In this document: one piece after another, positions 10,177-25,853 of the stretch
Layout of the letters: the number at the start of each line of letters is the position of its first letter
Numbering within the stretch: the stretch's first letter is position 1
Assembly: GCA_026389585.1 (NCBI GenBank)
Contig: JAPLHP010000012.1
Span: 1-38,654 of the forward strand
Length of the DNA: 38,654 bases
Direction: 5' to 3'
From: Chloroflexota bacterium
Lineage (GTDB): Bacteria; Chloroflexota; Dehalococcoidia; UBA2247; RBG-13-53-26
Notes under the pieces: generated by a model
Databases searched by the model: none
The model's input: only the letters and a program-made list of their open reading frames with translations
Told to the model about the DNA's origin: nothing
Program-made: the position numbers and the translations under genes

Positions 10177-10656
10177 CCAGATGAGCTAATTAGCCCTTAC
10201 ACCATCACAGAACACGTCGACGCCATGGAAGGTTACTTAGATTTTAGCCTACACCTCTTCGCTAGTCTATATTCCAGGGAAGCATCCGCCGGACCATCCT
10301 ATATTGGATTTACTGCGTGCGGTGCTGCGGGTGATAGTCCTTTGCTTTCCAGTGAGCCACCAAGTTTATTGATCATGTCCTGCCCCATCGGACTTGGCTG
10401 CCACTCCCTGCGCTCAACCTGAAAACGCAGGTATAAAATAGCACGCTGCGGCGTGCAAAAAGGGAGTCGTTCTGTACTGAGAGTCCAACCACACCTAAGT
10501 AACCTATCTTCCCGAACACTTAATTCCTGCAGCCATTTTGGCAACGTTAGTCTCGGAAGATGTTGAGGACATTGCCAACTTTAGAAGGGAGCACGAGAGG
10601 TTTATCAGGACGTGTTCTAAGTGGACGAACCTATTAAGTTTCTAGTGAGGTGAATA
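10177..10656. other. 480-bp stretch without a supported gene
   Basis: No convincing gene on either strand. A 47-codon open stretch on the plus strand (about 10500-10645, ending DIANFRREHERF then a stop) lacks a usable start codon and could be the remnant of a gene belonging with the broken small gene that follows. Confidence 0.4.
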
Positions 10657-11000
10657 ATGGATAAACAACTATTAAGGGAACTTGACCAGCACCAGGACAA
10701 ACTCACCATCGAAATACATCGCCAAGTTGTCAAGTCCCAGTCAGCCAATGCTAAAGTTGCCGAGCTTTGTGCGTGGCCCTCTGGCCCTAAGTCCCAGGCA
10801 GCCATTGGAACTGCGGGCGTTTTGACAACCTGAACTGTAGAGGCTGAAGTGAAAAGACTCAGGCATGGCTTGAACCTGATTAGGAAGCTGAGGTTGAAGG
10901 CAAAGACTGGGTGGCTACAGCCTAATGACCCGGAATTGGCTGAGGTGAGAAGGTTATCGGCTACTTGCAGCCCTATTTCATGAGGGAGCCAGAAGATTGA
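10657..11000 (+). pseudogene. broken small gene of unknown function
   Basis: ATG 10657 with a GAGGTGA site opens a frame MDKQLLRELDQHQDKLTIEI that stops at TGA 10831. The same frame resumes after the stop with EAEVKRLRHGLNLIRKLRLK and runs to 10983. A one-base shift then gives YLQPYFMREPED and a stop at 10998-11000, which looks like the natural end. About 65 bases around 10770-10835, containing the TGA, read as unrelated sequence, so the gene appears to carry an insertion plus a frameshift. The intact product would be a charged, mostly helical, small soluble protein. The family was not recognised. Confidence 0.45.
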
Positions 11001-11217
11001 AGCCTCTACCATGCTCTTGGGGCCGTGTTCTCCAAGCGGCCCCTGGCTCCCTCTTCGATTGTTTGGCCGGACCGTGTTCTGATGCTGTGACGCCCTCTCA
11101 GTACGGAACTGCCCGGCCACATCCTTCCGGGGCCAGGTCATCACTCCGCCTGGCCCTAGTATTTGCCCTATGCCTCTAGGCCCTAGTAGAAAGCGTCAAA
11201 GTAGATTGTCCATTCCT

Positions 11218-11764
11218 CTATGCCGTCGAATGCAACCCTAGGGTAGAATTGCTGCCTGCCATCCCATATGTATTCCACGCCAACGGATATAGGACGTACC
11301 TGCGTTCGCCGGCCTTATGGAGAATGTCACTGTTAGTAGACGGTATTATCCCAGGGTACATAACGCCTGCAATATCGCCATTTTGGTATTGGACAAAAAC
11401 CACAAAAAAGTTGCTAGAGGTCTGCTCACCAACATCGAGAGTAAATCTCAAGCGGAACCCATCCCCCGGTACATAGAAGGGAGCGGTATCCTCATATCCG
11501 AGGCCGTACCAATCCGGCAAGGGAGTGAGGACATCGTCTCCAGAGTCAGTGAAGGTAGTGATAGACTGATGCCACTCCTTGACAGTCAATTCGCCAGAGG
11601 GACCCTCTGGACCCTCTGGTCCTACTGCTCCCTGAACACCCTGTATCCCCTTGCACGCCCTGTGGCCCTTGTTCACCTTTTGCACCTGCACAAGCAGTAC
11701 CTATAATTGCACCTGCAAGTAGAAGCAACACCACCCCGATAGCCATCAGTCTGAAGAACCGCAT
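11218..11764 (-). pseudogene. collagen-like lipoprotein, frameshifted
   Basis: ATG 11764, preceded by AGGAGGAG, opens MRFFRLMAIGVVLLLLAGAI followed by IGTACAG, a lipoprotein signal with a plausible lipobox Cys. Collagen-like G-x-y triplets follow (GAKGEQGPQGVQG). At a G4 run (plus-strand CCCC 11647-11650) the frame changes: with one G fewer, translation continues GIQGVQGAVGPEGPEGPSGE and then a globular C-terminal region of about 120 residues (WHQSITTFTDSGDDVLTPLP; FRLRFTLDVGEQ; FVVFVQYQNGDIAGVMYPG) to TAG 11218. The two frames plainly belong to one gene. The break is a single-base insertion, a slippage (phase-variable) site or a sequencing error. The likely role is a surface lipoprotein with a rigid collagen-like stalk. 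Confidence 0.72.
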
Positions 11765-12356
11765 TTTTCTCCTCCTGATTGAGATACCTCCCTGAATGTA
11801 CAAGGTGTGGAGGTCAACATCAAGCGCCCTGCAGAACTTCAGGCTGTCTGTCAGGTTATCCCATCAAACAGTTCGGTTCTGTTCGGAATAGGTTGATGGG
11901 GCTGCCAAGTCTCGAATGTTCTACGGCTTTCACCAACGTCAACCAGACAGAAGCTGCGCACACGATGAAACGATAGTGAGGATGCTGGTGGACTGTGATT
12001 GAGACGGCAGACCTACAGTGACCAGACTGAAGCTTGCAACCAGACATAAATCAAAACCCTTGACATCTGCGAACTCACTATAGTACGTTCTCAAAAGGTT
12101 TCCCAGACGATAGCCACTTATAGGCCAGGCTTCTGCATATCTAGTGCCCTAGCGGGGCAAGACTACTCATAAGGGGGTTGAGTCCTCCGGAGTGGGGGAC
12201 TGAGTATAGCAAGCCGTTCCTATAACTACTTTACGTTATGGCATGAGCCGCTCTCATTGTTGTTGGGCGCGGGCTTTAGGGGGTGATAGCGAAGAAAGGA
12301 TTGAATTTATCGAACAATGACTAGTAGGAATGAATTCAACTGGATAGGAGGATAAG
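11765..12356. other. 592-bp intergenic region before the dockerin peptidase gene
   Basis: Divergent region between the collagen-like gene (minus) and the peptidase gene (plus). No gene is seen. It contains a TTGACA at 12060-12065 without a well-spaced -10 box, and an 8-bp hairpin at 12181-12201. AGGAGGATAA directly precedes the GTG start at 12357. Confidence 0.4.
12181..12201 (+). other. 8-bp hairpin in the leader of the dockerin peptidase gene
   Basis: AGTCCTCC (12181-12188) pairs with GGGGGACT (12194-12201) across a 5-nt loop, with one G-T wobble. No T tract follows, so it is not an intrinsic terminator. It lies about 155 nt before the start codon and may be a leader structure. No known riboswitch consensus was recognised. 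Confidence 0.35.
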
Positions 12357-14600
12357 GTGGTGAAGTTTACTCCAATCACTAGGGGAATTGTGGCTGCAGT
12401 GCTAGCCGTTGGGGCGATCAGTGGCACTTTTGCGGCTGGTTATAACCCTACGCAGATTTCCTCAGATCCAAGACGGATCCCAGATCCTCTGGGGAATCGG
12501 GGGGATATCTCTACACCTCTTGTATCTACACAGGATGCATCCACCGGCAGCAGTTACATGCTTGTTGATAACAGGGGCGGTAACTGGGCCGACGCTGAGA
12601 AACAGCCTGGTCGTGACGATACCCAAATGTGCTGGGCTGCCACCGCGTCGAACATGCTAGAGTGGACAGGATGGGGATTCGCCCCTGGACGTACGTTTGA
12701 CAGCACAGACGATATGTTCCGCGAATATCAGGACCACTGGGCCGATTCTGGTAGCTGGCCAAGTTACGCACTGGGCTGGTGGTTTGATGGCTCAATCCCC
12801 TCCAGTGGGACAGTTGATGTGCCAGGCAGTGGTGACTTCTGGCCATCATATAACTTTGATGACTATTTCGAGGAGTACTGGGCGGGACCGGATACGCTGC
12901 AGCACATAGACGAATATCTGCATAATGGATGGGCTGTCGGACTGGCGATATCCCCAGGAACCGGCCCCAATCATCTTATCACCTGCTGGGGCTTCAATTA
13001 TGATCCCAGTGTTGACAAATCGGCCCATCCAGAAAACTACTACAAGGGTATTTGGGTAACTGACTCCGACGACGACAAGTATCAATCTGGGGCTCCAGAT
13101 TGGCTTCAGTACTACAGCGTGTCATATCACAACATTGATAATGCTTGGTGGATGGACAATTATTACGGCGGGTACCACATTTTTGGCGTGGATGGGTTGA
13201 AACCCTTCGATGATGACACTAGGCCTGTAGCCAATGCTGGTGGTTCCTACGTTGGTACTGCAGGCCAACCCATCAGTTTTAGTGGTGCTGCTTCCACCGA
13301 CGCTGACCGCGATGCCCTTCAGTACCGCTGGGACTTCAACAACGACCGTGCCTGGGATACCGCCTGGTCATTAAGCCCGACGGCCAGTTTTACCTGGTGT
13401 GATCGGTACAGCGGGACCGTTGTCCTGGAAGTCTCTGACGGCCAGCTGAGGGATGTTCATACGGCTACAGTCACGGTGAATTTTCCGGTCCAAACCCTCA
13501 ATGCTGTCTGGGGCAGTTCGGCCAGCGACGTCTATGCCGTGGGGAATGGAGGCACCATCCTGCACTACAACGGGACTAGCTGGTCGGCTCAGGTCAGCGG
13601 CACCACCAACGACCTCCTTGGCGTCTGGGGCTACCGGTATTCGTTAATACCTATGATTACTGTTGAAGAGGTCTACGCCGTGGGGAGTAACGGAACCGTC
13701 CTAGTATCCAGATCCAGTAACGGGTTTCGGTGGACGGCTCAAAGTGGCACAGACGTCGGCACAGACCTCCGGGCTGTCTGGGGCATTCTCACCTTGGTTC
13801 CTTGGCCAACTAAACACTATTCGGTCGACGTCTATGCCGTGGGGTTGCAGCGCAACGTCGATGGCCCGTGGTATTACACCATCCTGCACTCCAATGGGAG
13901 TAGTTGGTCGGCTCAGAACCCCCCCGGTAGCCAGCTTCAGGGGAGGAACCTTGACGAAGGCCTCTGGGGTGTCTGGGGCAGCTCGACCAACGACATCTAT
14001 GCCGTGGGGTATGAGCATGGGCAGCCGGAGATCATCCTGCACTCCAGCGACGGCACTTCGTGGACTTCTTGCTCCAGCAGCACCGTCGCCTGGCTCTACG
14101 ATGTCTGGGGCAGTTCGGACAGCGACGTCTATGCCGTGGGGTCTTCGGGCACCATCCTGCACTCCACTGACGGCGGGAATAGTTGGTCTAGGGTTCAGAA
14201 CAGCGGCACCACTCAGTGGCTCTATGGTGTCTGGGGCAGGTCGGCCAGCGACATCTATGCCGTGGGGGGGCAGGGCACCATTGTGCACTACGACGGGACT
14301 AGCTGGTCGGCTATGGCCAGCAGCGGCACCACTCAGTGGCTCTATGGTGTCTGGGGCACCTTCGCCCGCGTCTTTGTTGTGGGAACAACTGGCACCATCA
14401 GGCTCTATCACATTCTTTTGGCAGCCCAATGCGACATCAATGTGGACCAAAAGATCAACTACAGAGACCTGGCCATACTCGGAGCCCACTACAGAGAGGC
14501 ACCAGCTCCGCCGTATCCGGCGTGGGATATCAACCAGGATGGGAAGGCAGACTTTAGGGACTTGGCCATGCTGGGAGCCCACTATGGAGAGTCCTACTAG
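12357..14600 (+). CDS. secreted IdeS/Mac-like cysteine peptidase with PKD domain, beta-propeller-like repeats and C-terminal dockerin
   Basis: 747 residues from GTG 12357. Signal peptide at 1-27 (IVAAVLAVGAISGTFAAG). Residues about 65-280 resemble the IdeS (peptidase C66) fold: Cys92 in MCWAATASNMLEW, His206 in PNHLITCWGFNYD and Asp236 in GIWVTDSDDD, in the order and spacing of the IdeS Cys-His-Asp site. A PKD domain follows at about 289-376. Seven repeats of about 40-60 residues follow, each with a VWGSSxSDVYAVGxxGTILH core (starting near 381, 421, 471, 536, 580, 622, 662), probably a propeller. Residues 690-747 are a type I dockerin with two complete calcium loops, DINVDQKINYRD and DINQDGKADFRD, each followed by LAxLGAHY. 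The next gene encodes a membrane-anchored cohesin, its likely docking partner. The true substrate is unknown; IgG cleavage, as in streptococcal IdeS, would make no sense for a free-living anaerobe. Confidence 0.85.
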   Translation: MVKFTPITRGIVAAVLAVGAISGTFAAGYNPTQISSDPRRIPDPLGNRGDISTPLVSTQDASTGSSYMLVDNRGGNWADAEKQPGRDDTQMCWAATASNMLEWTGWGFAPGRTFDSTDDMFREYQDHWADSGSWPSYALGWWFDGSIPSSGTVDVPGSGDFWPSYNFDDYFEEYWAGPDTLQHIDEYLHNGWAVGLAISPGTGPNHLITCWGFNYDPSVDKSAHPENYYKGIWVTDSDDDKYQSGAPDWLQYYSVSYHNIDNAWWMDNYYGGYHIFGVDGLKPFDDDTRPVANAGGSYVGTAGQPISFSGAASTDADRDALQYRWDFNNDRAWDTAWSLSPTASFTWCDRYSGTVVLEVSDGQLRDVHTATVTVNFPVQTLNAVWGSSASDVYAVGNGGTILHYNGTSWSAQVSGTTNDLLGVWGYRYSLIPMITVEEVYAVGSNGTVLVSRSSNGFRWTAQSGTDVGTDLRAVWGILTLVPWPTKHYSVDVYAVGLQRNVDGPWYYTILHSNGSSWSAQNPPGSQLQGRNLDEGLWGVWGSSTNDIYAVGYEHGQPEIILHSSDGTSWTSCSSSTVAWLYDVWGSSDSDVYAVGSSGTILHSTDGGNSWSRVQNSGTTQWLYGVWGRSASDIYAVGGQGTIVHYDGTSWSAMASSGTTQWLYGVWGTFARVFVVGTTGTIRLYHILLAAQCDINVDQKINYRDLAILGAHYREAPAPPYPAWDINQDGKADFRDLAMLGAHYGESY

Positions 14601-14678
14601 GCATAAAGCTTGACCGACTTTGTGCAGATGGGAGTGGCCATGTCAACAGCGCGGGAGTCAACCGCAAACATGGGCAAG

Positions 14679-14702
14679 GGGGTGGACACCTCTGCCCACC
14701 CC
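14679..14702 (+). terminator. terminator-like hairpin after the dockerin gene
   Basis: GGGGTGG (14679-14685) pairs with CCACCCC (14696-14702) over a 10-nt loop and is followed by the pyrimidine-rich TTCTCTTGTT. It starts 78 bases after the peptidase stop codon. Confidence 0.5.
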
Positions 14703-14800
14703 TTCTCTTGTTGCCAGACTGGACTGTCACCGGTTCCTCTGGTCGGATCGACATCTGGCCTCGCAGCGATCCCGCCCGGCGGGGGCTACCTCAAGCCGCA
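14679..14800. repeat. copy 1 of a repeat flanking the cohesin gene
   Basis: Made of a GGGGTGG/CCACCCC hairpin, a 43-nt block (14717-14759) and a 3' block GGCGGGGGCTACCTCAAGCC ending at CCGCA 14800. The 43-nt block matches 16449-16491 without gaps at 30 of 43 positions. The 3' block matches 16489-16511 with three differences. Relative to copy 2 it has about 24 extra bases between the two blocks. Read on the minus strand, the 3' block would encode LRLEVAPAGR, like the integrase C-terminus LRFEVALARR, so copy 1 may be the relic of another integrase end or a recombination target. Confidence 0.65.
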
Positions 14801-15160
14801 AAGACAGCCAAGGAACGATACTTGCTCCTTTTCTGAAGAGCCCAAAGGTGCTAGGTTTCTCTTCCGCATCAGAGGCATCTGGAGTTCAGGGTATCCCTCC
14901 CTTTGTATCCAAGCTGAAATTGGCGGGCTCCATGTGATAAGACAGTTCGCCCCATCGCCGGATTGGGCGCGATGGAGTAACGTGATTGCACTAGGGGGTG
15001 GCATCTAGGTATTCGTCGGGTGATTGTTGATTTCGATATTTCTGCCTCAACCCAAGATTGGCACAGATAGCGTATTCAATGAGACAAATGGCGGCAGATG
15101 TAAGGTGCTAGGAGGCATGACCTCTGAGGCAATACAGCGTAGCGAGAAAGGAAAGAAACA

Positions 15161-16387
15161 ATGGAAACAATGAAGAGACTCGGTTCAGTGGTTCTGGGCG
15201 TGTTGTTGTGTGTGGCGCTTGTGATTCCAATGGCAGGTTTGGCCTACGCCAGCGCCGATGCCACGGTCGTAGTGAGTCCAGCAACGCAGAATGTAGCCCC
15301 GGGAGCGACTTTCAGCGTTGACATCCTGGTTGATCCGTCTAGTTATGGGGTGTCTGGCGGGGAGGTGGACGTCGCCTTCAATCCCTCGGCCATGTCGGCG
15401 GCCGACATAGTGTTCGGGGATTTGTTCGGGGCGAGCCCCCTGGTGGGGAGCAAGAAGATAGACAACACCTTGGGGACGATACAGTATGCCTTGGCTAGAG
15501 ATGGGACAACCACTGTTCCGACAGCAGCCGGCAAGTTCGCCACCATAACGTTCACGGCAGGGAGCACAGCCGGGAACTATGCCATTGACATCACCTTCAT
15601 CGGTCTGGCTGACGATAGCTTCAATGACATAACGGGCGTAGCCATCACGGATGGCAGTGTGACAGTTTGGCAGCCAGGTCCTACTGATGCCACCCTGAGC
15701 AATCTCACTATCAGTGCCGGCACGCTCACTCCGGCCTTTGCTTCCGGCAATACCGGCTACACTGATGGTGTAGCCAACAGCGTGAACTCCGTCACCGTCA
15801 CCCCCACGGCCAATGAAAGCCACGCTACTATTACGGTCAACGGCGTTGCGGTGGCTAGCGGCAGTGCGTCTGGGGCCATTGCTCTGAACGTGGGTGACAA
15901 CACCATCACCATTGTGGTCACCGCGCAGGACGGGACTACTAGCGACACCTATACCGTGACCGTGACCAGGGCAGCAACGCCAACGTCGACACCCACCGTG
16001 ACCACCAGCGCTGCCATGCCTGTGGCCAGCAGCTCGGCCACTCTGAACGGAGACCTTGCCGCGCTGGGCACCGCGGGCAGTGTCAGCGTGTCCTTCGAGT
16101 GGGGCACTACTACCAGCTATGGCTCTGAAACCACGTCACAATCGATATCGGCGATAGGCACGTTCGACGCCAAACTGACGGGCCTCAGCGCCAATACTAC
16201 GTACCATTTTCGGGCCAAGGCGGTAGGTGACGGTGCCGCTGTCTACGGCGACGACATGACCTTCACTACTACTGCGCCGTCTGGCGGCGGAATGCCAACT
16301 CGGGCTTGGGTGTATATCGGCATTGTAGCGATCGCAGTCGTGGGCGGTGCGGTTTTCTTCATTAGTAGAAGACCGGCGAAGAAGTAG
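15161..16387 (+). CDS. cell-surface cohesin-domain protein with C-terminal membrane anchor
   Basis: 408 residues. Signal peptide at 1-31. Residues about 34-170 form a cohesin domain: ATVVVSPATQNVAPGATFSV, GGEVDVAFNPSAMSA, IQYALARDG, AGKFATITFTAG and ITDGSVTVW. Residues about 175-269 form a cadherin-like beta-sandwich (DATLSNLTISAGTLTPAF; DNTITIVVTAQDG). Residues about 277-371 form a fibronectin III-like domain (SVSFEWGTTTSYGSET; LSANTTYHFRAKAVG). A transmembrane helix (about 382-402) and a basic tail RRPAKK follow, so the cohesin faces outward and is held in the membrane. Cohesins bind dockerins, and a dockerin protein is encoded by the preceding gene in the same direction. There is only one cohesin, no carbohydrate-binding module and no glycoside hydrolase nearby, which sets it apart from a cellulosome scaffoldin. 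Confidence 0.85.
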   Translation: METMKRLGSVVLGVLLCVALVIPMAGLAYASADATVVVSPATQNVAPGATFSVDILVDPSSYGVSGGEVDVAFNPSAMSAADIVFGDLFGASPLVGSKKIDNTLGTIQYALARDGTTTVPTAAGKFATITFTAGSTAGNYAIDITFIGLADDSFNDITGVAITDGSVTVWQPGPTDATLSNLTISAGTLTPAFASGNTGYTDGVANSVNSVTVTPTANESHATITVNGVAVASGSASGAIALNVGDNTITIVVTAQDGTTSDTYTVTVTRAATPTSTPTVTTSAAMPVASSSATLNGDLAALGTAGSVSVSFEWGTTTSYGSETTSQSISAIGTFDAKLTGLSANTTYHFRAKAVGDGAAVYGDDMTFTTTAPSGGGMPTRAWVYIGIVAIAVVGGAVFFISRRPAKK

Positions 16388-16413
16388 CGACCAGAGGCCA
16401 TCGGAACTCGATC

Positions 16414-16437
16414 AGGGTGGGCATCGCCGCCCACCCT
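16414..16437 (+). terminator. hairpin terminator between cohesin gene and integrase
   Basis: A perfect 9-bp stem, AGGGTGGGC (16414-16422)/GCCCACCCT (16429-16437), with a 6-nt loop, followed by TCCTGT. It lies 27 bases after the cohesin stop and may serve both convergent genes. It is also the first part of repeat copy 2. Confidence 0.6.
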
Positions 16438-16511
16438 TCCTGTCGCATGACTGAACTGCGATCAGTTCTTGCGGTTAGATTAACGTCTGGCGAGTGCTAC
16501 CTCAAACCGCA
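16414..16511. repeat. copy 2 of a repeat flanking the cohesin gene; overlaps the integrase 3' end
   Basis: Has the same plan as 14679-14800: hairpin, 43-nt block (16449-16491) and a 3' block ending at CCGCA 16511 that contains GCTACCTCAAACCGCA (16496-16511; 15 of 16 identical to 14785-14800). The 3' part codes for the last residues of the recombinase on the minus strand. The two copies bracket about 1.7 kb holding exactly one gene, the cohesin protein. Confidence 0.65.
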
Positions 16512-17480
16512 GTGGGAAGTGGCGATTGTGTCTAGGACTCCAGGCTGGTCTCACCTCCCCCTTCAGCCCCAGATGGTCCCATGGAGCGTCTGTGAGGGTC
16601 TGGGATACTCCTAGATACCTCTCTGTGGTCTGGATCCTAGAATGCCCGAGACTCATCTGAATCTGGTCAAGTACGGCATTCCCTTTGTGTGCTAGTTTGG
16701 CGAAGGTTCTCCGTAGGTCGTGCGCTGCTATCCCCCCTGGAGCATAGGCAGTGACCACATCTGCTATTGCCTGATCGGTGAGGCTATCCCCGGTCACCCT
16801 GCCCCCCTTGTTCACTGGCCTGAAGATGCGGCCATTATCTATCTGAGCCATTGACGCCCATAGATCAACGGCATTCTTGGTCCAGGCCGGCATGGGTATG
16901 GTGCGCTTCCTGTTCCGCTTCCCTACCATGTCCACGATCACCCATCGGGATTCACGCATCTGGACGTGCTCAAAGGTAAGATTTGCCGCCTCGCTGCGTC
17001 GGAGTCCACACCCTATGAGAACAGACAAGATTGATCTGTCCCGGGTACTCTTCAAGGTGCTGCAGTTCGGTGAGTCCAGCAATTCCTGCGCTTGCTGCTT
17101 GGTCAGCCAGTTGCCGGTCCTGATGCCTTCGGAACGCATACCCTTAATGTTTTTGATACCGTTGGCAACCTCCAGAGGGATATGCCCAAGGTCTACTCTT
17201 CATTTACCAGCTTCCGAATGGCAGATAGTCTCTGGTTGATGTTCTGCGCTGACTTCCCCTGGTCCCTTAGTTCGGCGACATATCTCTGCACCACGGCCTT
17301 ATGCAGCACCATCTGGCCGGTGTTGCGATACCATAGAACGAAGTCATGCAGAGCTCGTCTATACGCGATCCTGCTGGCAGGACTATCCAGTGAGTCCAGC
17401 ACCACCATTGAATCCAGAGCCAGGTCCGCAATCAGCCTTGTCTCTCTTGGTTCGGCGACTACCATCAAAGCAGTTTCCAT
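16480..17480 (-). pseudogene. tyrosine recombinase/integrase, frameshifted
   Basis: ATG 17480, after GGAGGGGAG, opens the N-terminal SAM-like DNA-binding domain (SPASRIAYRRALHDFVLWYR; NINQRLSAIRKLVNEE), which stops at TAG 17195-17193. A one-base shift continues directly as VDLGHIPLEVANGIKNIKGM and then the catalytic domain: Arg in GCGLRRSEAANL, HDLRR, LGHSRIQTTERYLG with His and the nucleophile Tyr. All catalytic residues (R, H-x-x-R, H, Y) are intact and the gene is otherwise full length (about 330 residues). It is therefore recently broken, made by frameshifting, or a sequence error. It is an XerC/D-like phage or mobile-island integrase. It ends inside repeat copy 2 and points toward the cohesin gene, suggesting it belongs to the surface-protein island. 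Confidence 0.8.
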
Positions 17481-17605
17481 GTCTCCCCTCCTATCGGCGG
17501 CGCTAATCTGTCGTTATTTGTAGTCATTTCGGTGCCCTTTTTCCGTTGATAATTGGACAACTTTCGCTCCCCTGGCCGTTCGGGATGCCACATCGCAAAG
17601 CGTAG

Positions 17606-17630
17606 TATAATAACTTATAATGACGGTCAA
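17606..17630. promoter_or_regulatory. AT-rich divergent promoter region, pgk and integrase
   Basis: On the plus strand two TATAAT boxes (17606-17611 and 17616-17621) precede pgk, though neither has a good -35. On the minus strand TTGACC (17630-17625) followed by an AT-rich tract with TATACT could drive the integrase. The exact starts are uncertain. Confidence 0.4.
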
Positions 17631-17700
17631 GATGCCTCAATGCGGAGGCTCAATACGAGTTGGAGACATCTATCGTTAGAAAAATGGAGGAGGGCGAATA

Positions 17701-20868: not shown

Positions 20869-21785
20869 AGCCTGTCATTGCCATCGTTGGTCCCACCGGC
20901 ATAGGCAAGAGCAAACTGGGCCTTCTTCTGGCCCGGACCTTCAATGCTGACATTGTCAATGCTGACAGCCGTCAGGTCTATCGCTATATGGACATCGGCA
21001 CTGCCAAGCCGAGTCCTGAGGAACAACGTACTGTACCACACCATCTCATTGATATAATCAACCCCGACGACAACTTCAGTCTCGCCCTGTACCAATCGTT
21101 GGCTTACAGCAGCATCAAAGACATCGTGCAGCATGACAGGCTGCCACTAATGGTTGGGGGCAGCGGTCTTTACATATGGTCAGTTCTTGAAGGCTGGGAT
21201 ATCCCCAAAGCCCCTCCCAACCCCAACTTCAGGCGTCAGATGGAGGAAAGAGCATCCGTAGAAGGCATCGAGGCGCTCTACCGCCAGCTTCAAAGCATCG
21301 ATCCTGTCACCGCCATGAAGACAGATCCCCGCAACCTGCGCCGGGTGATCAGGGCTCTCGAGGTCTACGAAACAACCCGTAAATCCCCTTCGGAACTTCA
21401 AGGCAAAAGACCACCGCCGTTTGATATACTTATCATCGGGCTAACCACCCAAAGAGAGACGCTGTACAAGATGATTGACCGCCGGGTGGATGATATGATA
21501 AAGCAAGGGCTGGTGGAAGAAGTGAAAGGTCTGTTGAAGAGGGGTTACGGATTTGACTTATCGGCTATGTCCAGTGTAGGTTACAAGGAAATTGGCCAGG
21601 TCCTCCGGGGGGAATTGGATATGCTCACCGCCATCCAGAAGATAAAGTTTCAAACTCATCGTTTTGCCCGTCACCAGTACGCCTGGTTCCGTCTGCCCGA
21701 TCCCCGAATTCACTGGTTCGACATACAGGATGACCTTGAGAGGAACGTCCTCCACTTCATCAGGGAAAAAGTGACAATGCCATGA
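20865..21785 (+). CDS. miaA: tRNA dimethylallyltransferase
   Basis: 306 residues, the usual length. Adds an isopentenyl group to A37 of tRNAs reading UNN codons. The P-loop is VGPTGIGKSKLG, followed by NADSRQVYRYMDIGTAKPS, PHHLIDIINPDDNFSLALYQ, LMVGGSGLYIW and the C-terminal HRFARHQYAWFRLP. It is coupled to tpiA by an ATGA overlap and to the next lipoprotein gene by another. Substrate tRNAs in this window would include Ser(TGA) and Tyr(GTA). Confidence 0.96.
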   Translation: MKPVIAIVGPTGIGKSKLGLLLARTFNADIVNADSRQVYRYMDIGTAKPSPEEQRTVPHHLIDIINPDDNFSLALYQSLAYSSIKDIVQHDRLPLMVGGSGLYIWSVLEGWDIPKAPPNPNFRRQMEERASVEGIEALYRQLQSIDPVTAMKTDPRNLRRVIRALEVYETTRKSPSELQGKRPPPFDILIIGLTTQRETLYKMIDRRVDDMIKQGLVEEVKGLLKRGYGFDLSAMSSVGYKEIGQVLRGELDMLTAIQKIKFQTHRFARHQYAWFRLPDPRIHWFDIQDDLERNVLHFIREKVTMP

Positions 21786-22915
21786 ACAAGAGAGCCATCA
21801 CAACAATCGTCATCCTCCTTGTTCTAGCCTCCCTTGTCCTGACAGCTTGCCGCCAGGCCTCTCCAGAGGCTATCAACCTCAATGGGTTCAACGTCATCCT
21901 CAGCAAACCCAATGTCGAATTCCCCGACTCTATCACCTTTGACATCGATGTAGCAGCTAAAGCAGATATTTCCAGGATAACCTTTCAGTATCAGGTACAA
22001 AAATTGAGCGTGTTCCCGGTTACCAGCGTTGCCTTTCCACCATTTACATCAACGTCCAGAGTGAAAACGAGCTGGAAATGGGATATGACTCAAACCGGTG
22101 GATTGCCTCCCGGCACCGACCTGACCTACTGGTGGGCAATCGAAGATGCCGAGGGAAACACTGCTCAAACCCCTGTAAGCACCCTCAGCTTCGATGACCA
22201 GCGCCACTCGTGGCAAAGCTCATCCGAGAACGGGATAACCCTGCTCTGGTATCAAGGTAACGATTCCTTTGTGCAACAACTGATGACTGCAGCTAAAGGA
22301 GCGCTGGATAGACTGGCTGAAGATACCGGCGCTCGGCCAGAAGACAAGGTCAGCATATATATCTATGCCAGCACCCAGGATCTGCAGGATGCTATGCTTT
22401 ATCCCAACGAATGGACGGGGGGGGTCGCTTATAGCGAATACCACACTATAGCCATCGGCATCTCTCCGGACAACCTGGACTGGGGGAAAGGGGCCATGGC
22501 TCATGAACTGGCTCACCTCGTAGTCCATCAGGTTACCTTCAGTGGCTACGGTATTGAACTGCCCACCTGGCTCGACGAAGGGCTCGCTATGTATGCCGAA
22601 GGTAGTCTAGTCTCTGATATGGCAAGCGTATTGAAGAGTGCCATCACTCAAAACAAGCTCATCTCAGCCAGGAGTCTCTGCAGTCCTTTCCCTGCCGAGG
22701 CCGATGCAGCTATCCTGGCTTATGCCGAAAGCTACAGCCTGGTCAAATATCTCCTTGAACAACACGGCGGCCAAGCCAAAATGCTGGAACTGCTGAACGC
22801 CTTCAAGCAAGGTAGTGGTTATAACGAATCCCTGGATCGCGTATATGGCCTTGATATTGACAAACTGAATGACCTGTGGAGCACGTATATCAGACTGCAC
22901 CCTGTCGTCACTTGA
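21782..22915 (+). CDS. peptidase MA-like metallohydrolase lipoprotein
   Basis: 377 residues. A lipoprotein signal ends in LVLTAC (Cys23). An N-terminal beta-rich region of about 110 residues precedes a gluzincin-type peptidase domain with HELAH (His241, Glu242, His245) and the third zinc ligand in WLDEGLAMYAEG (Glu266). This arrangement is the 'peptidase MA family' pattern seen in many Chloroflexi lipoproteins. Its substrate is unknown; it would act on the outer face of the membrane. ATG overlaps miaA by four bases, and the next lipoprotein gene follows 11 bases later, perhaps working with it in peptide scavenging. Confidence 0.83.
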   Translation: MNKRAITTIVILLVLASLVLTACRQASPEAINLNGFNVILSKPNVEFPDSITFDIDVAAKADISRITFQYQVQKLSVFPVTSVAFPPFTSTSRVKTSWKWDMTQTGGLPPGTDLTYWWAIEDAEGNTAQTPVSTLSFDDQRHSWQSSSENGITLLWYQGNDSFVQQLMTAAKGALDRLAEDTGARPEDKVSIYIYASTQDLQDAMLYPNEWTGGVAYSEYHTIAIGISPDNLDWGKGAMAHELAHLVVHQVTFSGYGIELPTWLDEGLAMYAEGSLVSDMASVLKSAITQNKLISARSLCSPFPAEADAAILAYAESYSLVKYLLEQHGGQAKMLELLNAFKQGSGYNESLDRVYGLDIDKLNDLWSTYIRLHPVVT

Positions 22916-24725: not shown

Positions 24726-25853
24726 GTGTCATGACAGGCGTTCAAGTGACAATAACATCTCATCTGGGGATTTGGTCCATTGAAACCGCTTGCCTTCCCG
24801 ATTGAACTTCTCGACAAAAGCCAGAAGCCTGGCCACCAGGTCTGACTTAGAGGGAAAGATGCCGCGGGCCACCACTTTGGTTTGCACCAGGCTGAAGAAA
24901 AGCTCCACCAGGTTGAGCCACGAAGAATAAGTGGGCACGAAATGGAAGAAGACCTGATGATGGGACTCCATCCATAGCTGGACCTTCTTGGATTTGTGGC
25001 TGCTCACGTTGTGCAGCACCACGTGGATGGTCTCCTGTCGATAGTGCTTGACCACCCCATTCAAGAACCGCAGGAAGTCTTCCGAGCGATGTCGGTCCTG
25101 GCATCTGGCCTGCACCTGGGCAGCAGCCACCTCCAGGGCGGCAAATAGTTGAGTGGTGCCGTTGCGCTTGTCCTTCCCTGAGGAAGGATGGGTGCGCCGC
25201 GCTATCTGGTCTGGGCGCCTGAGCAAGGCAGGCTGTGTTCGGTCCAAGGCCTGAACCTGTGTCTTCTCGTCCACGCACAGGACCACCGCATTCTCTGGGG
25301 GAGCGGCATAAAGCCCAATCACATCCATCAGCTTCACTCGAAACTCCGGGTCGTTGGAGCGGGTGAAGGTACCCAACCGGTGGGGGCGCAGGTACGCCTC
25401 CCGCAATATCGCCCTCACAGTCTCACGGCCCACACCTGTGGCTTTGGCCAGGGTGCGAATACTCCAATGCGTCTCGCCTTCCGGAACCCCCGTGCACGCT
25501 ATCTCCACTACCCTGCGCCGGTCTTCCGCTGTGTATTTGATAGGCGTCCGCTTCTTGGCACGGTTCCTGAGCCCCGCCATGCGCTCCAGCGCGAAGCGAT
25601 TACGCCATAACGCCACACTGTGGGATGATAGGCCAACCTCCTCGGCAATTGCCTTGTTCTCCTTCCCTGCGGACGCCAGGAGCACGACCCGTGCCCTCAT
25701 CACCTCACGCTGGGTGGCTGTGCGAGCCTTCAGTCTACGCTCAAGCAAGTTACGCTCCCGGGCAGTCAACAGAATGGCAACAGCTCGTTTGCTCATGCCA
25801 CACAGCATAGCAGACTCACGGCCTTATGGCAAGGCAATCGCCTGTCAGAACAC
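24726..25853 (-). mobile_element. IS630-family insertion sequence, complete, with TA flanks
   Basis: 1128 bp. The left end GTGTCATGACAGGCG and right end (read inward) GTGTTCTGACAGGCG form a 15-bp imperfect inverted repeat with two mismatches. TA lies immediately outside each end (24724-24725 and 25854-25855), as expected for the TA target duplication of IS630/Tc1 elements. One transposase gene fills the element. It sits between tRNA-Ser and the DUF362 gene and disrupts nothing visible. Confidence 0.85.
24729..25808 (-). CDS. IS630-family transposase with a substituted catalytic residue
   Basis: 359 residues. N-terminal helix-turn-helix domain (LTARERNLLERRLKARTATQ; NKAIAEEVGLSSHSVALWRN), winged-helix region (HWSIRTLAKATGVGRETVRA) and DDE domain. 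The first Asp is in VLCVDEKTQVQALDRTQ and the final Glu in SSWLNLVELFF. The second Asp, normally in a VVLDN motif, is His here: IHVVLHNVSSHKS, codon CAC (plus strand 25015-25017 region) instead of GAC. One base change therefore probably inactivated catalysis. The stop codon lies inside the left inverted repeat. Start ATG 25808, or an internal Met (MSKRAVA) four codons later. Confidence 0.9.
   Translation of the reverse strand: MLCGMSKRAVAILLTARERNLLERRLKARTATQREVMRARVVLLASAGKENKAIAEEVGLSSHSVALWRNRFALERMAGLRNRAKKRTPIKYTAEDRRRVVEIACTGVPEGETHWSIRTLAKATGVGRETVRAILREAYLRPHRLGTFTRSNDPEFRVKLMDVIGLYAAPPENAVVLCVDEKTQVQALDRTQPALLRRPDQIARRTHPSSGKDKRNGTTQLFAALEVAAAQVQARCQDRHRSEDFLRFLNGVVKHYRQETIHVVLHNVSSHKSKKVQLWMESHHQVFFHFVPTYSSWLNLVELFFSLVQTKVVARGIFPSKSDLVARLLAFVEKFNREGKRFQWTKSPDEMLLSLERLS

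Follow-up and report, generated by a model that had tools for sequence, protein, structure and literature searches.

We find that an uncultured Chloroflexota bacterium probably carries a minimal two-gene surface-docking cassette, of a dockerin-then-cohesin type that recurs across its class. The window that we analysed is the whole 38,654-nucleotide stretch of DNA given above. Within it, the dockerin and cohesin modules encoded at 12357–14600 and 15161–16387 are confirmed as real. The original prediction had proposed a secreted protease held on the cell's own surface by a single-cohesin anchor, and the searches of this genome and of its relatives support such an arrangement.

Domain architecture of the two proteins

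Both open reading frames were recovered where the original prediction had placed them, and all the features of the two proteins lie on the plus strand. The upstream gene (12357–14600) begins with GTG, has an AGGAGG ribosome-binding site near position 12347 and encodes a dockerin-bearing secreted protein of 747 amino acids. A signal peptide can be read from the sequence at about residues 1–27 (12357–12437). Further along are a PKD domain (residues 288–374, 13218–13478; PF18911, E = 1.1e-8) and seven VWGxxxxDVYAVG..GTILH repeats (residues 383–685, 13503–14411), which are evident in the sequence, have a weak Ycf48-like match and likely form one beta-propeller.

The protein ends in a type I dockerin (residues 691–747, 14427–14597). 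This scores 76.9 bits with the family model, and with PF00404 it scores 24.3 bits in the full protein and 31.0 bits as an isolated domain, where the curated Pfam cut-off is 22.9 bits. Its two F-hand repeats are nearly symmetric and keep their calcium ligands: the expected residues are present both in loop 1 (DINVDQKINYRD, residues 693–704) and in loop 2 (DINQDGKADFRD, residues 724–735). A score above the cut-off combined with two duplicated calcium loops bears out the predicted dockerin with two complete loops.

The downstream gene (15161–16387) encodes a membrane-anchored, single-cohesin protein of 408 amino acids. A signal peptide (about residues 1–31, 15161–15253; read from the sequence) is followed by the cohesin domain (about residues 32–170, 15254–15670), a cadherin-like beta-sandwich (residues 179–270, 15695–15970; PF12733, E = 7.9e-23) and an fn3-like stalk domain that resembles the one in the cohesin-TM protein of genome G008 (residues 277–372, 15989–16276). 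The C-terminus is a transmembrane helix with a basic tail (16301–16387; RAWVYIGIVAIAVVGGAVFFISRRPAKK, hydropathy 2.5), again read from the sequence.

An hmmscan of the full-length 408-residue protein did not report the cohesin, which was picked up both as an isolated domain (45 bits with PF00963) and in the genome search (44.4 bits); the curated cut-off is 24.1 bits. The A2 model gives 120.6 bits. An AlphaFold model of the domain (pLDDT 86.6) has the cohesin jelly-roll fold, with top PDB matches that are cohesins at TM-scores of about 0.65–0.80. These solved structures include non-cellulosomal cohesins; among the matches are 4ums (E = 4.5e-9) and 2xdh of Archaeoglobus fulgidus (E = 9.4e-8). 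Profile score, fold and sequence reading all agree with the predicted order of signal peptide, cohesin and C-terminal membrane helix.

A proposed docking mechanism

Profile searches of the 1.93-Mb genome detect one dockerin and one cohesin, on neighbouring genes. Chance adjacency was rejected because these are the sole dockerin and the sole cohesin detected in 1.93 Mb. Neither the profile nor the family-model searches of the host genome found a second dockerin or cohesin that might serve as an alternative partner, so that the search for more dockerin proteins called for by the original prediction returned just the one at 12357–14600. Because the assembly is a draft (95% complete), a further partner could be missing.

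A cellulosome was also rejected. The genome has one cohesin, not a scaffoldin with several, and it has no dockerin enzymes of the cellulosomal kind: its sole dockerin sits on a protease-like protein, not on a glycoside hydrolase. The scan of window proteins, which covered most of the open reading frames, saw no glycoside hydrolase or carbohydrate-binding module, in line with the claim that none is nearby.

We propose that the upstream gene would supply a secreted multidomain protein (protease-like, PKD, propeller) with a terminal dockerin, and the downstream gene a membrane-held protein that presents one cohesin on an Ig-like stalk. Both would be exported, the calcium-loaded dockerin would plug one to one into the cohesin, and the docking would keep the enzyme on the producing cell. 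For the window pair we infer the binding of dockerin to cohesin, its dependence on calcium, the surface location and the proteolysis. Capture on the cell's own surface assumes that the two genes are expressed jointly.

The peptidase-like domain

The identity of the cargo is a more tentative matter than that of the docking modules. Residues 66–286 of the dockerin protein (12552–13214) form a putative IdeS/Mac-1-like cysteine peptidase domain, a remote assignment with a Pfam score just below the cut-off: the isolated domain reaches 19.0 bits with PF09028 (Mac-1), where 20.3 are required. The candidate catalytic residues are C92 in MCWAATASNMLEW, H206 in NHLITCWGF and D236 in VTDSD. A phmmer comparison with solved IgG/Ig-protease structures gave a weak match, yet both catalytic blocks align, and in alignments to 2au1 and 9arc the Cys, His and Asp blocks occur in order. 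The 'protease' of the original prediction has the aligned blocks in its favour but not the family profile.

PKD domains, like propeller repeats, are characteristic of binding proteins. An alternative is that the enzyme-like domain is something other than a protease, its Cys, His and Asp being structural or binding residues, and that the cohesin anchor displays a surface adhesin. The PF09028 score below the curated cut-off and a single-sequence AlphaFold model with no confident fold (pLDDT 37) would fit this alternative as well; the alignment of both catalytic blocks, in the right order, with solved IdeS-type Ig-protease chains speaks against it, and we consider it possible though doubtful. An adhesin would change the cargo alone and would leave the docking model standing.

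No relative of this domain turned up in 148 related genomes, when 85,000 genomes and viral contigs were scanned by pattern, or in plasmids or phages. A sweep of 400 genomes of the phylum gave just two matches (E about 0.005), which were taken as chance because the local open frames have no evident resemblance to the domain.

Cassette order in related genomes

Cohesins occur in 30 and dockerins in 29 of the 148 relatives; 22 have both, compared with about 6 expected. Where the two genes adjoin, the dockerin gene is directly upstream of the cohesin gene in 34 cases and the reverse holds in 5 (26 to 2 when counted by genome, p = 3e-6). Some relatives have longer chains that run Doc, Coh-Doc, Coh-TM. 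The last gene of a cassette often encodes a membrane- or lipid-anchored protein, and the cargo is varied, including proteases, beta-helix proteins and a solute-binding-like protein. Of the 78 small cohesin genes in the sample, 38, about half, lack a dockerin gene immediately before them.

The window pair follows the class-wide order, with the dockerin gene directly upstream of the cohesin gene on the same strand. The recurrence of the pair in relatives, another check named in the original prediction, therefore holds for the gene order, which is found across the class, and for the types of the adjacent modules, which co-vary. The exact pair, with its peptidase as cargo, was found in none of the relatives. 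The spacing is also exceptional: the intergenic gap (14601–15160) is 560 bp, longer than at any other of the 44 dockerin-to-cohesin junctions, whose median is 27.5. It is not the short gap of an operon and gives no sign of one for the pair in this genome.

Type matching of dockerins and cohesins

Adjacent dockerins and cohesins are matched in type. Over 39 adjacent pairs, the dockerin and cohesin distances correlate at r = 0.85 between families; shuffles within families give a mean r of 0.41, and none of 10,000 reaches 0.85 (p < 1e-4). Shuffling the pairing within genomes gives p = 0.0014. A purely phylogenetic co-variation was rejected on the strength of these two kinds of shuffle, and inheritance of linked genes could account for part of the co-variation. 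When cassettes from different families share a dockerin type they also share a cohesin type in 72 of 87 cassette pairs, against 7 of 583 otherwise. The cargo is homologous in just 12 of those 87 same-type pairs and is mostly swapped. Within a cassette, plug and socket fit each other in type and are unlike those of other cassettes.

The window pair is of a matched subtype, with DLAxLG in the dockerin and ARxGxT in the cohesin. The motif pair DL[AT]xL[AG] and ARxGxT is found in all six subtype members and in none of the 33 others. Both loci found after the subtype had been defined (L211 and L212) have DYRDLA[IM]LG dockerins and ALARxGxT cohesins. A scan of named genomes with a two-member subtype alignment returned a single locus, L174, with the match position as in G019. 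The window dockerin clusters alone at the threshold used, and by distance it lies closest to a member of the subtype. Most other members have a lipobox-like sequence instead of the transmembrane helix.

Type-matched cohesins are present in several families of the class, which would make cross-binding between species plausible. The modules might then be real and yet form no dedicated pair: the dockerin protein would be released and dock elsewhere, on other cells or species that have cohesins, and the window cohesin would catch foreign dockerins. The 560-bp gap, by which the pair is not tightly operon-linked here, would also suit such an exchange. We regard it as unlikely, given that adjacent genes are type-matched far above chance, even in the within-genome shuffles, and that the genome has a single module of each kind, both on one inserted segment.

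An inserted segment with a recombinase

That segment is the interval between PCMT and PGK (10177–17700), which spans 7.5 kb here and no more than about 1 kb in any of five relatives. Adjoining the cassette on the minus strand is a frameshifted tyrosine recombinase, with its catalytic half at 16480–17139 (PF00589) and its N-terminal half, in another frame, at 17193–17480. Related copies occur elsewhere in the family. The whole cassette unit presumably arrived by transfer.

Could the segment be a relic of mobile DNA, acquired with the now-frameshifted recombinase and carrying the docking genes as passengers with no current function? The extra DNA between PCMT and PGK, a recombinase split over two frames with related copies in the family and the failure to find relatives of the peptidase domain would all be in keeping with this. 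Neither docking gene is truncated or disrupted, however: the signal peptides, the calcium ligands, the candidate catalytic residues and the membrane anchor have all been kept, and we think it very improbable that the two genes are mere passengers.

For the class as a whole, the docking model extends to a broader proposal, for which we see about an even chance. Gene order would mirror assembly order: each dockerin would fit the cohesin of the next gene, and the last gene would often provide the anchor. Several mutually insulated plug-socket types would occur side by side within a genome, and each matched pair could pass from family to family while its cargo is exchanged. The window would then hold the most compact version, one plug and one socket, brought to its site on mobile DNA.

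Comparison with known systems

The non-cellulosomal pair of A. fulgidus (2xdh) serves as an orthogonal display pair (PMC9705933). It resembles the window pair in that cohesin and dockerin occur in an organism with no cellulosome, and its cohesin fold matches our model; however, A. fulgidus is an archaeon and its cohesin sequence is remote (13% identity). A non-SLH anchoring scaffoldin has been defined as having at least one cohesin and a motif for the cell surface, for instance a C-terminal TM helix (PMC11557425), a definition that covers the window cohesin protein, and the Coh-Doc genes of the relatives fit the 'monovalent adaptor' class of the same scheme. Unlike the scaffoldins described there, the window has one cohesin per one dockerin, no primary scaffoldin and no cellulases; Chloroflexi go unmentioned in that text.

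The longer chains, in G007, G149, G255 and G316, resemble in logic the sca cluster of Acetivibrio cellulolyticus, where clustered genes encode ScaA, the adaptor ScaB and the anchor ScaC, which join one after another at the cell surface (PMC3413522). That system is a multi-cohesin cellulosome with SLH anchors, whereas the Chloroflexota cassettes have single cohesins and varied cargo. The Limousia mucinolysome (PMC12997984) is likewise a non-cellulose cohesin-dockerin assembly with a surface-anchored cohesin, but it is multi-enzyme, multi-scaffoldin and sortase-anchored, and belongs to gut bacteria. ANME archaea have many non-cellulosomal dockerin and cohesin proteins, of unclear role; in the parts of that report available to us (PMC9012536) these include scaffoldin-like multi-cohesin proteins, which the window lacks, and neither cassette order nor type matching is described. 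The window pair belongs to a known kind, the non-cellulosomal cohesin-dockerin pair.

What cohesins and dockerins do outside cellulose degraders has been asked ever since they came to light in archaea and many bacteria. With just one of each, side by side, this genome offers about as simple a natural test as one could have of the view that they are a docking device of general use. The type matching between families yields a table of predicted orthogonal pairs, for use in specificity tests, protein display and assembly. Finally, the cassette suggests how the members of this uncultured group may retain extracellular enzymes on their own surface.

The cassette and its genome

The original prediction held that a secreted protease is docked to the cell surface by a single-cohesin anchor. 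Both open reading frames on which it was built are present, at 12357-14600 (+) and 15161-16387 (+). The first has a GTG start with a good ribosome-binding site and encodes 747 residues: a signal peptide in the N-terminal part, a cysteine-protease-like first domain, a PKD domain (PF18911, E=1.1e-8), seven repeats of the form VWGxxxxDVYAVG..GTILH, which resemble a single propeller of seven blades, and, as had been claimed, a C-terminal type I dockerin with both calcium loops complete. The second product, of 408 residues, has the expected signal peptide, one cohesin and a C-terminal membrane helix, together with a cadherin-like domain (PF12733, E=7.9e-23) and an fn3-like stalk. The structural model of the cohesin (pLDDT 86.6) matches solved cohesins, including the non-cellulosomal cohesin of Archaeoglobus fulgidus. 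A full-length Pfam hmmscan of this product missed the cohesin, which scores 45 bits as a lone domain and 44.4 bits in the genome search; annotation pipelines may report too few cohesins.

The protease assignment stood in part. Both catalytic blocks, MCWAATASNMLEW and NHLITCWGF...VTDSD, align as a remote match to solved Ig-protease chains, with C92, H206 and D236 as putative catalytic residues. The IdeS/Mac-1 peptidase model scores 19.0 bits on this domain, below its cut-off of 20.3, and relatives were found neither in 148 related genomes or 400 genomes of the phylum, nor by a pattern scan of 85,000 genomes, nor in viral contigs, plasmids or phages. The domain is either a distant IdeS/Mac-1 peptidase or a neighbour of that family; with its low score and no relatives found, its proteolytic activity is putative.

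Pfam models and models built from relatives were run against the entire draft assembly (1.93 Mb, completeness 95%). Exactly one dockerin and one cohesin were detected, and these are the two adjacent genes on the same strand. A cellulosome was rejected, given the single cohesin and no glycoside hydrolase with a dockerin.

Recurrence in related genomes

The dockerin-cohesin arrangement recurs in relatives. Among the 148 related genomes cohesins occur in 30 and dockerins in 29, with both in 22 versus about 6 expected; a group-specific model finds cohesins in 86 of 393 members of the class. Gene order was scored wherever a dockerin-bearing gene adjoins a cohesin-only gene on the same strand, in the window and in 80 neighbourhoods picked non-randomly by cohesin and dockerin matches; the dockerin comes first in 34 pairs and the cohesin in 5 (26 versus 2 when genomes are counted, p=3e-6). 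The median gap at the junction is 27.5 bp. That of the window, 560 bp, is the largest among 44 junctions, which weakens the case for co-expression of this pair.

Small cohesin proteins encoded directly downstream of a dockerin gene (n=35) were classed by simple rules, giving 11 with a C-terminal membrane helix, 10 with a lipobox-like sequence and 14 with neither. Cargo across the cassettes includes right-handed beta-helix and LamG proteins, a Peptidase_MA protein (G019), a protein with subtilase and clostripain domains (G392) and a PBP-superfamily protein (G080). A Peptidase_MA_2 protein near the window cassette (21782-22915) has no dockerin, unlike that of G019 (locus L071, 374-1675), which is dockerin cargo.

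Some cassettes form chains of dockerin (Doc), cohesin (Coh) and membrane-helix (TM) proteins: Doc, Coh-Doc, Coh-TM in both G007 and G149; three Coh-Doc, then Coh-TM in G255 (L121); and Coh-Doc, Coh-Coh-Doc, Coh-TM in G316 (L118). The dockerins along the L121 and L118 chains are near-identical, so the order within them may not be strictly fixed. A separate, multi-protein version is seen at L063 (G002) and L125 (G138), where several large secreted proteins, all ending in nearly identical GDVVVxGLHWGE dockerins, lie beside cohesin proteins. The class also has proteins that resemble scaffoldins and carry four to eight cohesins each, some ending in a membrane helix (L080 in G110, L117 in G173, L127 in G193 and L144 in G154).

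Matching of plug and socket

Over 39 adjacent pairs, distances among dockerins correlate with those among their downstream cohesins (r=0.87; 0.85 between different families and 0.79 with one pair per family). Shuffling cohesins within families gives a mean of 0.41, with 0 of 10,000 shuffles reaching the observed correlation, and shuffling within genomes gives p=0.0014. Linked inheritance could contribute to this co-variation of plug and socket. It would bring the cargo too, yet the cargo is mostly not homologous: with types and thresholds of our own choosing, two cassettes from different families that agree in dockerin type also agree in cohesin type in 72 of 87 comparisons and have homologous cargo in 12 of 87, whereas those that differ in dockerin type share a cohesin type in 7 of 583. 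Several different matched pairs occur inside the window's own family.

At the threshold used, the window dockerin is a cluster of its own; G288 has the closest dockerin, and G019 and G288 have the closest cohesins. Its subtype comprises six pairs from five families (the window, G019, G288, G149, G138 and G381), the G019 dockerin being read from DNA where a frame change splits the gene near its end. All six have the dockerin motif DL[AT]xL[AG] and the cohesin motif ARxGxT, and either motif occurs in 0 of 33 other pairs, the motifs having been set on these six after inspection and the independent test consisting of two loci from one family. Those two previously unused loci, in G275 and G341 of family f79, came from a search with the subtype cohesin model. 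Immediately upstream is a dockerin gene ending in DYRDLAILGARY or DYRDLAMLGAQY, for which the window counterparts are NYRDLAILGAHY and DFRDLAMLGAHY, and the cohesins are lipoprotein-like with ALARxGxT. On these motifs both loci fit the subtype, a modest success outside the pairs on which it was defined. In G379, too, there is a cohesin resembling the subtype, but its DFKDLAIIG dockerin lies about 3 kb away.

Probable insertion site

The interval between the PCMT and PGK genes holds an extra segment (10177-17700). It spans 7.5 kb in the window versus 0.2-1.0 kb in five genomes of the same family (G002, G003, G004, G007 and G009), which have at most a small ATPase gene there. The simplest reading is an insertion in the window genome; loss of this DNA in all five relatives would also produce the difference and is less likely. 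The gene at this site in G003 and G004 is CooC-like. Within the extra segment, a frameshift-split tyrosine recombinase adjoins the cohesin gene (16480-17139 and 17193-17480, reverse strand). G008 has copies of it that are 75-77% identical, and the window genome has an 85% fragment at another place (G000:C11); the recombinase apparently belongs to a mobile family within this bacterial family. Two further reverse-strand reading frames in the segment are without clear relatives (11218-11691 and 10617-11144), one with a short collagen-like stretch. A DDE_3 transposase-like frame (24729-25808, reverse strand) adjoins tRNA-Ser.

Place among known systems

Non-cellulosomal cohesin-dockerin pairs are of a kind already known. 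By analogy, the window pair would work like the archaeal pair of A. fulgidus, which was put to use in PMC9705933, and like those of the ANME archaea treated in PMC9012536. The chain form of the relatives' cassettes appears similar to the Acetivibrio cellulolyticus sca cluster (PMC3413522), and the window anchor falls into the 'nonSLH-anchoring' class defined in PMC11557425. Among the open papers searched, a single one contains the words Dehalococcoidia and dockerin together; its subject is Anaerolineae, in which it reports no dockerin. What is new is the one-to-one arrangement, together with matched cassettes across the class.
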